This document shows positions 8,699-52,493 of a stretch of 64,000 nt of DNA, piece after piece (positions within the stretch are counted from its first letter, which is position 1; each line of letters starts with the position of its first letter). This DNA comes from Arenibacter nanhaiticus. GTDB lineage: Bacteria > Bacteroidota > Bacteroidia > Flavobacteriales > Flavobacteriaceae. Where the stretch lies: contig NZ_FQYX01000005.1 of the NCBI RefSeq assembly GCF_900141935.1, forward strand, positions 1 to 64,000, in the 5' to 3' direction. Below the pieces are notes generated by a model. It ran no database searches and was not told the origin of the DNA. It saw only the letters and a list, made by a program, of their open reading frames with translations. A program made the translations under genes and the position numbers.

Positions 8699-9346
8699 CT
8701 TTTTTAACGTACTTAATAATCTGGCCGCTTAAATAACCCTAACTATTAGCTGTGGTGACATAAATCTTATTACAGTGCGGCCATTTTCCCGACGATCTTT
8801 TTTCTCGCCACACGAGAACACTAAGTCACTTCATTAAAAACAACACTTTATTTCCACAATTAAAATCGCGACACAAAATTACCCACTCTAACAAACAACT
8901 GCGAGGATTATTAAATTTTAATAATATAAGTGTCTTTTTTTTTAGTAAACAAGCCAAACACAGCCATCTTGTCTGCACGAAGCTTTTTAAGTTAAAACCA
9001 TACTACCAGATGAGTTTATTCAAAAGCCCGTCAAACAGCCTTAAAAGGATACCTATAGGGGTTTCGTCAGCAAAACCCTCAAGACCTTACTCAACAATCC
9101 CGTTTATACAGATTTTATAGAATATTTCCTTGGGCGCCCCCTCCTTCGTCGGTCGGGCACTTGGCTATATCCCTTGCTCCGCTTCGGGGATGCCGCCGCG
9201 GTCCCTAACGCGGAAAAACACAAAAATGTACCTCTATGCTAATGTGGGAATTACTGCCCAGAAGAACCTTCGATACTTCCCTTTAATAAACATACTTCTT
9301 CCTCCCAAGAAACCCCTTTCTGATATCCAACCTACATATTGGCAAT
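8699..9346. other. Long intergenic region carrying repeat copy 1
   Basis: About 650 bp between convergent genes show no credible ORF (the 72-codon frame at 9130 runs through the GC-rich repeat). It contains an AT-rich palindrome at 8907-8925 (ATTATTAAA...TTTAATAAT), a nine-T run near 8935 and the GC-rich 83-bp element at 9132-9214. Base composition is otherwise AT-rich. It could be an untranslated 3' region or hold a small RNA gene, but there is no direct evidence. Confidence 0.6.
9132..9214 (+). repeat. 83-bp GC-rich interspersed repeat, copy 1
   Basis: This differs at only four positions from the copy at 48247-48329. It starts GGGCG and ends CCCTAACGCGGA. It is over 65% GC in an AT-rich setting and contains short palindromes around GGGGATGCCGCCGCGG. 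Flanks are not shared with the other copies, and no target-site duplication is visible. Confidence 0.9.
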
Positions 9347-47144: not shown

Positions 47145-47726
47145 TTAATTCGTTAAAACGATATTGTTTTTTTCTATGATTTTTCGAAGATTAATAAGAG
47201 CATAACGCATTCTTCCCAAGGCTGTATTAATGCTTACACCGGTGTTTTCGGAGATTTCCTTAAAACTCATGTCCTTGTAAATACGCATCACCAGCACTTC
47301 TTTTTGATCTTCCGGAAGCTCCTCTATCATTACATTTAAATCTGAATCTATCTGATCTTTGATCATCTGCTTCTCTACATTCAACTTTTGATCCCCAATG
47401 ACAGAAAAAATATTAAAATCATCAGTTCCTTCAAACATAGGCATCCTTTTATTTCTTCTAAAATGATCGATGACCAGGTTATGTGAAATTCTCATTACCC
47501 AAGGTAAAAATTTACCTTCTTCACTGTATTTCCCCCTTTTCAGGGTGTTGATTACCTTTATAAATGTATCCTGAAAAATATCTTGGGTAATATCTTTATC
47601 CAGAACTTTGGAATAAATAAAGCTGCTAATACGTTGGTTATGACGGTTAATTAATACCTCCAAGGCCTTTTCGTTACCGTTTATATAGTCTTTTACTAAT
47701 ACTGAATCGTCTATCTGCAGTTCCAT
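47145..47726 (-). CDS. ECF-type RNA polymerase sigma factor (first of tandem pair)
   Basis: The 193 residues have the sigma-70 region 2 (about 15-85: NRHNQRISSFIYSKV..DIFQDTFIKVI, then LPWVMRISHNLVIDHFRRNKR as region 2.4) and region 4 (about 125-180: LPEDQKEVLVMRIYKDMSFKEISENTGVSINTALGRMRYALINLR). No N- or C-terminal extension and no anti-sigma gene is adjacent. It is about 75% identical, by eye, to the protein at 48517-49098. The small ORF at 46928-47071 follows 73 bp downstream. The regulon is unknown. Confidence 0.93.
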   Translation of the reverse strand: MELQIDDSVLVKDYINGNEKALEVLINRHNQRISSFIYSKVLDKDITQDIFQDTFIKVINTLKRGKYSEEGKFLPWVMRISHNLVIDHFRRNKRMPMFEGTDDFNIFSVIGDQKLNVEKQMIKDQIDSDLNVMIEELPEDQKEVLVMRIYKDMSFKEISENTGVSINTALGRMRYALINLRKIIEKNNIVLTN

Positions 47727-48246: not shown

Positions 48247-48329
48247 GGGCGTTCCCTCCTTCGTCGGGCGGGCACTTGGCTATATCCCTTGCTCCGCTGC
48301 GGGGATGCCGCCGCGGTCCCTAACGCGGA
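48247..48329 (+). repeat. 83-bp GC-rich interspersed repeat, copy 2
   Basis: It reads GGGCGTTCCC at the start and CCCTAACGCGGA at the end, and has CCGCTGCGG and CCGCCGCGG palindromes inside. It differs from copy 1 at four positions and from copy 3 at four. The edges are sharp: GC-rich sequence stops abruptly at both ends. The terminal GCGTT/AACGC form a 5-bp inverted repeat. Confidence 0.92.
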
Positions 48330-48516: not shown

Positions 48517-49098
48517 TTAATTCGTTAGTGTAAGCTGATGCTTTTCTACCATTTTCCGAAGATTTATCAAGGCATATCGCATTCTTCCCAAAGCAGTATT
48601 GATACTGACTCCCGTGTTTTCTGATATTTCCTTAAAACTCATATCCCTATAAATGCGCATTTCTACCACCTCTCTTTGGTCTACCGGCAATTCCTTTACC
48701 ATTAGGGAAAGTTCTATATCTATCTGGTCTTTTATGAGTCTCCTTTCCGCGTTTAAATGGTCGTCTCCCATAACAGAAAAAATATTAAAATTTTTAGACA
48801 CCTCAAACTTGGGCATTCTATTGTTTTTTCTAAAATAGTCTATGATTAGATTATGGGATATCCGCATTACCCAGGGCAAAAATTTCCCTTCTTCAATATA
48901 CATTCCCTTCTTTAAGGTTTTAATCACCTTTATAAAAGTATCCTGAAATATGTCTTCGGTAACCACCTTGTCTTGAACTTTGGAGTAAATAAAGCTGCTA
49001 AGGCGTTGATTATGACGATTTATCAATGTCTCCAGAGACTTTTCGTCTCCATTGATATAGTTGCTTACCAGTACTGAGTCTTCAATTAATAGTTCCAT
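48517..49098 (-). CDS. ECF-type RNA polymerase sigma factor (second of tandem pair)
   Basis: The 193 residues have exactly the same length as the first sigma factor and the same domain limits. Region 4 SFKEISENTGVSINTALGRMRYALINLR is identical between the two, while regions 2.4 and the linker differ (NNRMPKFEVSKNF against NKRMPMFEGTDDF). This suggests a tandem duplication with divergence in promoter recognition or regulation. Its start codon abuts a long hairpin (49101-49190) which would form the mRNA leader. No anti-sigma gene is adjacent. Confidence 0.93.
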   Translation of the reverse strand: MELLIEDSVLVSNYINGDEKSLETLINRHNQRLSSFIYSKVQDKVVTEDIFQDTFIKVIKTLKKGMYIEEGKFLPWVMRISHNLIIDYFRKNNRMPKFEVSKNFNIFSVMGDDHLNAERRLIKDQIDIELSLMVKELPVDQREVVEMRIYRDMSFKEISENTGVSINTALGRMRYALINLRKMVEKHQLTLTN

Positions 49099-52132: not shown

Positions 52133-52493
52133 GCTTTAGGCCTGCTTATTTCTTTATGCCGTTAAAACCAAGTTTTTCGGCTGTGTGTATGGTGAAAAAC
52201 GTATGATTTTCACCGCTGCACTATTTTTTTTGCGTTAGGGACCGCGGCGGCATCCCCGCGGCGGAGCAAGGGATATAGCCAAGGGCCCGCCCGACGAAGG
52301 AGGGAACGCCCTAAACACAAGTACCTGTACTACAACTTATTACAATAGAAACACCTTCTTTTCTACTGCCCAACACTCTTTAAATTGCCCTCTTTCCTAT
52401 CAATGCTTTTTTGTTTAGTACCGTTTTTGGCATGTTGTTTGTATGGTTCTAATCGAATGTCAATAGTAGCATTCTGAATTAAAACCTTATGAT
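52133..52493. other. Intergenic region between uvrA and the secreted protein gene, with repeat copy 3
   Basis: The 361 bp have no ORF. They contain copy 3 of the GC-rich repeat (52229-52311, minus orientation). The rest is AT-rich, and no clear promoter box for the following gene was found. Confidence 0.6.
52229..52311 (-). repeat. 83-bp GC-rich interspersed repeat, copy 3 (inverted)
   Basis: The reverse complement aligns base for base with copy 2 over 83 bp with four differences, two of them at the last bases (CGCAAA instead of CGCGGA). The orientation is opposite to the other two copies. No flanking similarity is visible, as in the other copies. Confidence 0.9.

Follow-up and report, generated by a model that had tools for sequence, protein, structure and literature searches.

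What is the short box of DNA that begins at position 48247 of this stretch, and why do two further copies of it lie in the same stretch? The window (i.e., the whole of the DNA analysed, 64,000 nt) belongs to Arenibacter nanhaiticus, whose genome comprises 4.36 Mb in 85 contigs. The first-pass annotation, made from the letters of the window, allowed for a REP- or MITE-like element, a structural RNA or a site for a chromosome-organising protein. Are these readings equally good once the rest of the genome, its relatives and the known repeat and RNA families are considered?

An 80-bp repeat with three copies in the window

Rechecking the positions in the window confirmed that all three copies are where they had been placed (Table 1), in gaps between open reading frames (ORFs) of at least 100 amino acids and with flanks unrelated to one another. 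The reported unit of 83 bp needs trimming: the conserved core is 80 bp, GGGCGTT...AACGC, usually with TTT just before it, and it is present in 78 of the 83 copies of this genome that entered our flank profile (83 of 87 hits, leaving aside two without a recognisable start, one cut short and one caught by a duplicate or short-flank rule). Pairwise identity of 95% or more applies to the copy at 48247 against those at 9132 (95%) and 52232 (96%) but is not true of every pair, since 9132 and 52232 are about 91% identical. Scanned at E <= 1 with a structure model, R1, built from an alignment (A1) of 33 copies of the long-arm form from this genome, the window yields exactly these three copies and no other match. 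We set aside a coding repeat as unlikely: single-base gaps separate one copy from another, and their place is between ORFs. As a separate observation, the copy at 48247 is flanked by two tandem ORFs of 193 aa (window 47145-47726 and 48517-49098), which have a 300-nt stretch in common at 73% identity.

Table 1. Copies of the element in the window and the parts of the fold drawn for copy 2
Feature	Position	Strand	Details
Element copy 1, short-arm	9132..9211	+	R1 41.0 bits, E 2.5e-9; orthologous site occupied in sister species
Copy 1 outer stem, partly broken	within 9132..9211	+	GCGCC with AACGC
Element copy 2, short-arm (reported copy)	48247..48326	+	R1 49.7 bits, E 7.7e-12; orthologous site occupied in sister species
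Copy 2 outer stem, 5' side, GCGTT	48249..48253	+	pairs with 48322-48326
Copy 2 hairpin 1 (CCC...GGG)	48254..48268	+	length and loop differ among copies
Copy 2 long arm	48270..48320	+	GGG/CCC (48270-48272 with 48318-48320), pair step, then apical hairpin
Copy 2 co-varying pair step	48274-48275 with 48315-48316	+	one of the two pairs is an A/G mismatch here
Copy 2 apical hairpin (ATCCC...GGGAT), variable three-base loop	48284..48306	+	far shorter than in the long-arm subfamily
Copy 2 outer stem, 3' side, AACGC	48322..48326	+	
Element copy 3, short-arm	52232..52311	-	R1 55.8 bits, E 1.4e-13; orthologous site occupied in sister species

Copy number and subfamilies

The estimate of over one hundred copies in the genome was borne out. 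When at most three mismatches are allowed, a 28-base inner motif gives 86 matches in this genome; with at most two, an 18-base motif gives 151 and a motif of the right end of both subfamilies gives 210. A pattern for the long-arm form gives 45. Reversed-pattern controls returned 0 matches against each of these counts (86, 45, 151 and 210). Across the genus, the right-end pattern counts 210 copies here and 227 in a sister species (G012) versus 4-13 in 16 other congeners, so that multiplication in the ancestor of the two species is the simplest reading.

The second form, recognised by a script on fetched copies, is of the type GGGCGTTCCCCTATCGGGTCGCGCTTTCCGCTGTATCTTTTTT-hairpin-AAAAAAGGATGCCGCTGCAATCCCTAACGC; the sequence of its long apical hairpin varies between copies, with complementarity mostly retained. 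Intermediates between the short-arm and long-arm subfamilies exist, and so do chimeras that join the left part of one subfamily to the right part of the other (loci L183 and L191, and short copies in loci L056, L104 and L105). In other congeners, copies in L165, L166, L177, L179 and L180 carry an extra hairpin of the TGCCT..CGG..GGCA type at a constant place between TCCC and TAACGC, which makes of the fold a four-way junction.

Relation to Flavo-1

Does the repeat belong to a family that already has a name? Weinberg et al. 2010 list Flavo-1 among the candidate RNAs of Bacteroidetes (PMC2864571, consulted in part); Rfam holds it as RF01705, typed "Gene; sRNA" and with no known function, and a review names it without a function (PMC9029176, in the part consulted). 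With the RF01705 gathering score of 42 bits as the cut-off for membership, the threshold is reached by 8 of 9 long-arm copies scanned from this genome and by all 20 loci scanned from the family, each the best R1 match of its genome; the matches to the long-arm form lie on the strand opposite to the GGGCGTT...AACGC reading. None of the window copies reaches this threshold, and the copy at 48247 has no match even at E <= 10 (271 bp scanned); among short-arm copies at other loci, the best score is 37.6 bits and most have no match at all. The bridge between the two forms is R1, which was built from long-arm copies only and nonetheless gives the window copies E values of 1.4e-13, 7.7e-12 and 2.5e-9. 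The window copies have the core sequence, the fold and the phylum of Flavo-1 but differ from it in hairpin 1, in an apical arm that is much shorter and in scores below threshold. Judged on sequence and fold, they are very probably a divergent, short-arm subfamily of the Flavo-1 family.

An impression that similar boxes occur in other Flavobacteriaceae was right in substance. When one genome per genus was scanned with R1 (E <= 0.001, at most 20 candidates scored per genome), 136 of 199 genomes of the family had matches. In the genome collection, at least 118 stretches contain an exact motif of the long-arm form, and the matches listed for it include Mesonia, Algibacter, Aquimarina, Flavobacterium, Chryseobacterium, Pedobacter and Sphingobacterium, as well as a Chitinophagaceae bacterium and Marinifilum. 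A match to the inner motif on a viral contig (L031) was discarded, that contig being without the element. The portions consulted of PMC2864571, PMC9029176 and PMC9723704 contain no description of Flavo-1 as a DNA repeat and say nothing of its copy number or of a fixed, alternating placement. Literature searches by sequence fragments and on repeats of this group gave no lead.

A three-way junction supported by covariation

The fold that we drew is a three-way junction, in which an outer stem (GCGTT/AACGC) encloses hairpin 1 together with a long arm, and the long arm contains a conserved internal loop. This hand-drawn junction replaced the RNAalifold structure of A1, which also beat shuffles, because it explains the changes among GGG/CCC, GCG/CGC and GCT/AGC in the main arm. 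In A1, these combinations occur in 6, 3 and 7 copies, respectively, so that 16 of 33 are matched and 17 of 33 are unmatched.

Covariation supports the junction. The first-pass annotation had proposed an alignment of all copies as a check for covarying stems, and such stems were found: in each of four alignments, cells changed on both sides of a pair exceed those of shuffled alignments, and 0 of 500 shuffles reached the observed number. For A1, 90.6% of cells are paired versus 86.9% when shuffled, and 44 cells are changed on both sides versus 21.6; two weaker measures are not decisive here (6 doubly changed pairs versus 5.6, 316/500; 19/500 for pair types). For A2 (86 distinct short-arm copies), the corresponding values are 96.7% versus 95.1% and 33 versus 6.2, with pair types at 103/500. 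For A3, the best model matches at 29 loci of 29 other genera, they are 92.4% versus 80.4% and 100 versus 27.4. For A4, with 87 matches at 80 loci picked by an exact 26-base motif, they are 90.1% versus 77.6% and 314 versus 95, and here the pairs with a double change also stand out (22 versus 11.7, 0/500). A3 and A4 were both chosen with the model and aligned to it and therefore lean towards it; sliding the partner columns by one to three positions lowers pairing in them to 39-54%. The four sets overlap in ancestry, and so their counts are not independent events.

In the outer stem, the share of paired cells is 99.1% for short-arm copies and 100 and 98.1% across genera (A3 and A4), where compensatory changes occur. 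Within the short-arm set, pair 33-75 of the long arm is C-G in 47 copies, T-A in 20, G-C in 3 and unpaired in 16 of the 86. Folding energies of single copies, calculated for the three in the window, are no better than those of shuffled sequences (z -0.12 to +0.30).

Does the fold act as RNA or as DNA?

If the working form were a transcript of one strand, G.U pairs should be tolerated on that strand and A.C mismatches should not. Counted over 6,078 cells of columns in which at least half of the sequences have a Watson-Crick pair, the alignments contain 55 G.T and 70 A.C mismatches (A1, 9 and 17; A2, 0 and 7; A3, 7 and 16; A4, 39 and 30), and in A4, the widest set, G.T is slightly the commoner. 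An A.C on the strand counted is a G.U on the strand of the Rfam entry; hence, the expected excess appears on neither strand. By comparison, 16 distinct tRNAs from the fetched sequences have 15 G.T and 0 A.C in 252 stem cells, in a small control whose stem-finding script gave G.T half credit. One position has a stable T.G pair in 77 of 86 short-arm copies, and this pair is absent from the count, which was confined to columns with a Watson-Crick majority.

Orientation relative to genes is free. In tandem gaps of this genome, the two senses are represented by 14 and 22 short-arm copies and by 9 and 4 long-arm copies; the sister species has 11 and 14, and other genera have 8 and 12. A similar picture comes from Flavobacterium psychrophilum, where, according to the part consulted of a transcriptome study (PMC9723704), Flavo-1 hits lie indistinctly in sense or antisense, many of them outside transcribed regions, and gave no clue to function, while several 5' transcribed regions overlap such hits.

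Could the repeat nonetheless be a small noncoding RNA, or a structured element of untranslated regions, that works as a transcript from many copies? The conserved fold, the sRNA type of the Rfam entry, the overlaps with 5' transcribed regions in F. psychrophilum and the one stable T.G pair are consistent with this idea. What speaks against it is the lack of an overall excess of G.T over A.C, which the tRNA control does show, together with the absence of a preferred orientation to genes, the indifference of the F. psychrophilum hits to sense and transcription and a copy number (about 210 per genome) that would be unusual for an RNA gene. We therefore regard an RNA as improbable. The structural part of the earlier RNA reading survives in the covarying fold, whereas the mismatch pattern and the free orientation tell against its RNA part, and we judge that mutations, placement and spacing probably fit a site acting at the level of DNA better than they fit an RNA.

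Fixed sites, constraint and past mobility

The high identity of the window copies amid unrelated flanks had been taken to mean either recent mobility or strong constraint. There is no sign of recent movement: when 113 copies were tested against 1.19 Mb of the sister species, 35 could be placed, and all 35 sites are common to the two species; a script recognised 34 of them, and the remaining one, which the regular expression had passed over, was identified by eye. In a later set, partly of the same sites, 23 of 23 were shared. The element itself has been kept while its flanks have diverged. Orthologous short-arm elements (28) are 96.3% identical, with 60-bp flanks at 74 and 70% and unrelated flanks at 51%; orthologous long-arm elements (6) are 91.4% identical, with flanks at 77 and 58%. 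Gapped alignment of 150-bp flanks gives 84 and 80% identity over the aligned columns. Among 27 orthologous pairs (the 28 minus one of unequal length), all 78 substitutions fall within 22 of 79 columns, leaving 57 unchanged; unpaired columns have 57 of the substitutions (6.4% per site) and paired columns have 21 (1.7%). Where base pairs differ between orthologues, a double change that preserves Watson-Crick pairing accounts for only 2 of 16.

Can exchange between copies, rather than selection, account for this sameness? Gene conversion could mimic purifying selection, and some conversion between copies is likely; one orthologous pair (L065) has 11 differing sites, as if one member had been replaced by another copy. 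However, orthologues (96.3%) are closer than paralogues (92.5%), which excludes complete homogenisation. We conclude that the element was amplified, is now fixed in place and is probably constrained mainly as DNA.

How does the element compare with known mobile repeats? REP, BIME and REPIN repeats, which go with RAYT transposases and are described in part in PMC3733652, resemble the element in being palindromic, intergenic and high in copy number and in lying mostly at gene ends and rarely between divergent genes. The element is a three-way junction of 80-95 bp, however, whereas a REP is a hairpin of 20-40 bp; of the REP end tags GTAG/CGTC, the CGTC of the short-arm form sits inside hairpin 1 and not at an end; and, unlike REPs, neighbouring elements alternate in orientation over many kilobases in two sister species. 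A RAYT flanked by the element was looked for in this genome and not found: the sole Y1_Tnp match (L040 1420-1854, -) is bordered, by eye, by different hairpins and not by the 80-bp element. These short hairpins, of the CAGATTCATC..GGAGGAC type, make L040 a separate candidate REP system in its own right. At L040 1180-1210, moreover, a repeat-like CTTCGGCTGTGTTCAGTACAAGC stretch is read into an ORF start (ACTEHSRS); it presumably resembles another Bacteroidetes repeat.

MITEs are short, noncoding, amplified sequences with short inverted ends. The element has all of these traits, its inverted ends being GCGTT/AACGC, but differs in that neither a target duplication nor recent movement was detected and the loci read contain no autonomous parent. 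The reported absence of target duplications was upheld over 83 copies (best z 2.4 in 1,800 tests of offset and length), with the qualification that the insertions are old and a duplication may have decayed or blurred in the flanks. An insertion sequence or a MITE with target duplication was accordingly set aside. So was an integron attC site, in which the GTT/AAC ends stand in the order opposite to that of the element.

What remains of the REP- or MITE-like reading is past amplification (210 and 227 copies versus 4-13); the missing target duplication and the missing cognate RAYT count against the rest, and a REP/RAYT system is not supported. Might the repeat still be purely selfish, i.e., a nonautonomous REP/REPIN or MITE moved in trans and devoid of host function, with gene conversion or a shared recent origin behind the similarity of the sister species? 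Its burst-like copy numbers and the chimeras of short-arm and long-arm halves are what such an element would leave behind, and across 199 genomes a Y1_Tnp match accompanies the element in 64 of 136 genomes versus 9 of 63 without it (p 7e-6), a co-occurrence of which genome size may be the cause. Against this, a Y1_Tnp match is lacking in 19 of the 36 genomes rich in the element (at least 15 matches), the only one here lies between other hairpins, and target duplication was not detected; in addition, no placeable site differs between sister species whose flanks have diverged by about a quarter, and orthologues are more alike than paralogues. A purely selfish element is, in our estimation, an unlikely account.

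Spacing, orientation and gene context

Where do the copies lie, and how are they arranged relative to one another? In the sister species, the elements occupy 33 convergent, 25 tandem and 5 divergent gaps (6 of 69 without a gap assignment being left out), against 104, 515 and 140 element-free gaps. In this genome, the convergent/tandem/divergent counts are 36/36/4 for short-arm copies and 7/13/3 for long-arm copies, after exclusion of those inside an ORF (7 of the 83 short-arm and 1 of the 33 long-arm copies). Among copies of this genome that have two neighbouring genes, divergent gaps thus contain 4 of 76 (short-arm) and 3 of 23 (long-arm); in the sister species they contain 5 of 63. At 28 loci of other genera, by contrast, tandem gaps prevail (convergent 4, tandem 20, divergent 2 and one-neighbour 2), so convergent enrichment is not general.

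The copies are too evenly spaced in both sister species. The coefficient of variation (CV) of spacing in G012 is 0.66, versus 1.00 (sd 0.12) for random positions (0 of 2,000) and 0.95 when gaps of matching classes are drawn at random (0 of 1,000); a second calculation for G012 gave 0.62 versus 0.98 (0 of 2,000). Over 0.83 Mb of this genome it is 0.69 versus 0.93 at random (0.6%). Orientation alternates as well. Neighbours lie on the same strand in 14 of 64 cases in G012 (16 of 66 with a wider expression) and in 12 of 45 in this genome overall; among pairs of this genome that are not both covered by the G012 stretches, the figure is 3 of 25 (p 1.6e-4), and for the two species together it is 19 of 91 (p 2e-8). 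With distance, same-strand neighbours go from 0 of 8 below 1.2 kb through 1 of 16 up to 8 kb, 2 of 16 up to 14 kb and 6 of 22 up to 20 kb to 10 of 29 beyond. The 8 close pairs found by script in the loci of this genome each join a short-arm and a long-arm copy with their AACGC ends facing, and two more, in L083 and L102, are arranged in the same way. Outside the two species the data are sparse. In six other genera, scanned with an incomplete pattern, alternation is not seen: neighbours within 40 kb lie on the same strand in 14 cases and on opposite strands in 18. A set of 8-kb loci gives 2 same and 6 opposite. A strand bias with replication was considered and rejected (66 of 113, p 0.09, with the origin assumed at coordinate 1).

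Does alternation require a function? Nearby direct repeats invite deletions, and their avoidance could produce the pattern with no function at all. Alternation is still seen at 8-14 kb between copies of 80 bp, which makes us doubt that repeat avoidance is the whole story.

Gene context raises one more candidate, a two-way transcription terminator or protector of mRNA 3' ends between convergent genes. Although the fold can form on either strand and, in the two sister species, convergent gaps are enriched and divergent gaps rare, such a role seems quite doubtful to us, since 25 of 63 classified copies in G012 lie in tandem gaps in either orientation, tandem gaps prevail in other genera (20 of 28), G.T is no commoner than A.C and both the spacing and the alternation of neighbours would be left unexplained.

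A folded DNA site for a host protein?

Of the readings offered at the outset, a site for a chromosome-organising protein fits the constraint in place, the regular spacing and the alternation best, although it is not proven. Overall, we favour an amplified short-arm repeat of the Flavo-1 type that is kept as a folded DNA site for a putative host protein, and we give this reading a probability of roughly 55%; because the rivals are not exclusive of each other or of this reading, the odds need not sum to one. In the mechanism that we propose, the family would have multiplied in a single burst, in an ancestor shared by the two species, and would not have spread since. Its fold would act as DNA, in the form of extruded or single-stranded hairpins and not of a transcript, and the putative protein would bind this folded DNA. 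A part in chromosome structure or topology has been proposed for the REP/BIME repeats of E. coli; by analogy, copies of the element may be kept at gene ends as sites of that kind, a role that we put forward tentatively. It is a long shot that the copies are polar anchors dividing the chromosome into units of roughly 16 kb, where about 200 folded, evenly spaced, alternating sites would be read by a putative protein according to the orientation of the junction, much like the convergent boundary sites of loop-extrusion systems.

Why does the distinction matter? Rfam has listed Flavo-1 since 2010 as an sRNA without a function, whereas the present data favour a DNA element; if it is one, the entry is due for refiling, and a role in protein binding, topology or chromosome structure can then be tested across a large bacterial family. 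With more than 200 copies in each, the two sister species amount to a natural amplification experiment, and their orientation and spacing statistics constrain any mechanism that may be proposed.

Sequences and genes next to the copies

Downstream of AACGC there is often an AT-rich tail of degenerate CAAT repeats of 7-8 bases (e.g., L053 1957-2055), and several of these tails then carry a motif like CTAATCAGGGAAGTTC, possibly a second repeat family. Some copies lie near rRNA genes. A congener short-arm copy (L169 680-759, -) is about 500 bp upstream of a 16S rRNA gene (1-174, -), and in this genome a long-arm copy (L206 1440-1534, +) is about 860 bp upstream of a 16S match (2395-2438, +), which is truncated where the contig ends and falls below threshold. 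Other congener copies near contig ends (L161-L163) have similar downstream sequence, as if they marked the edge of a repeated rRNA unit.
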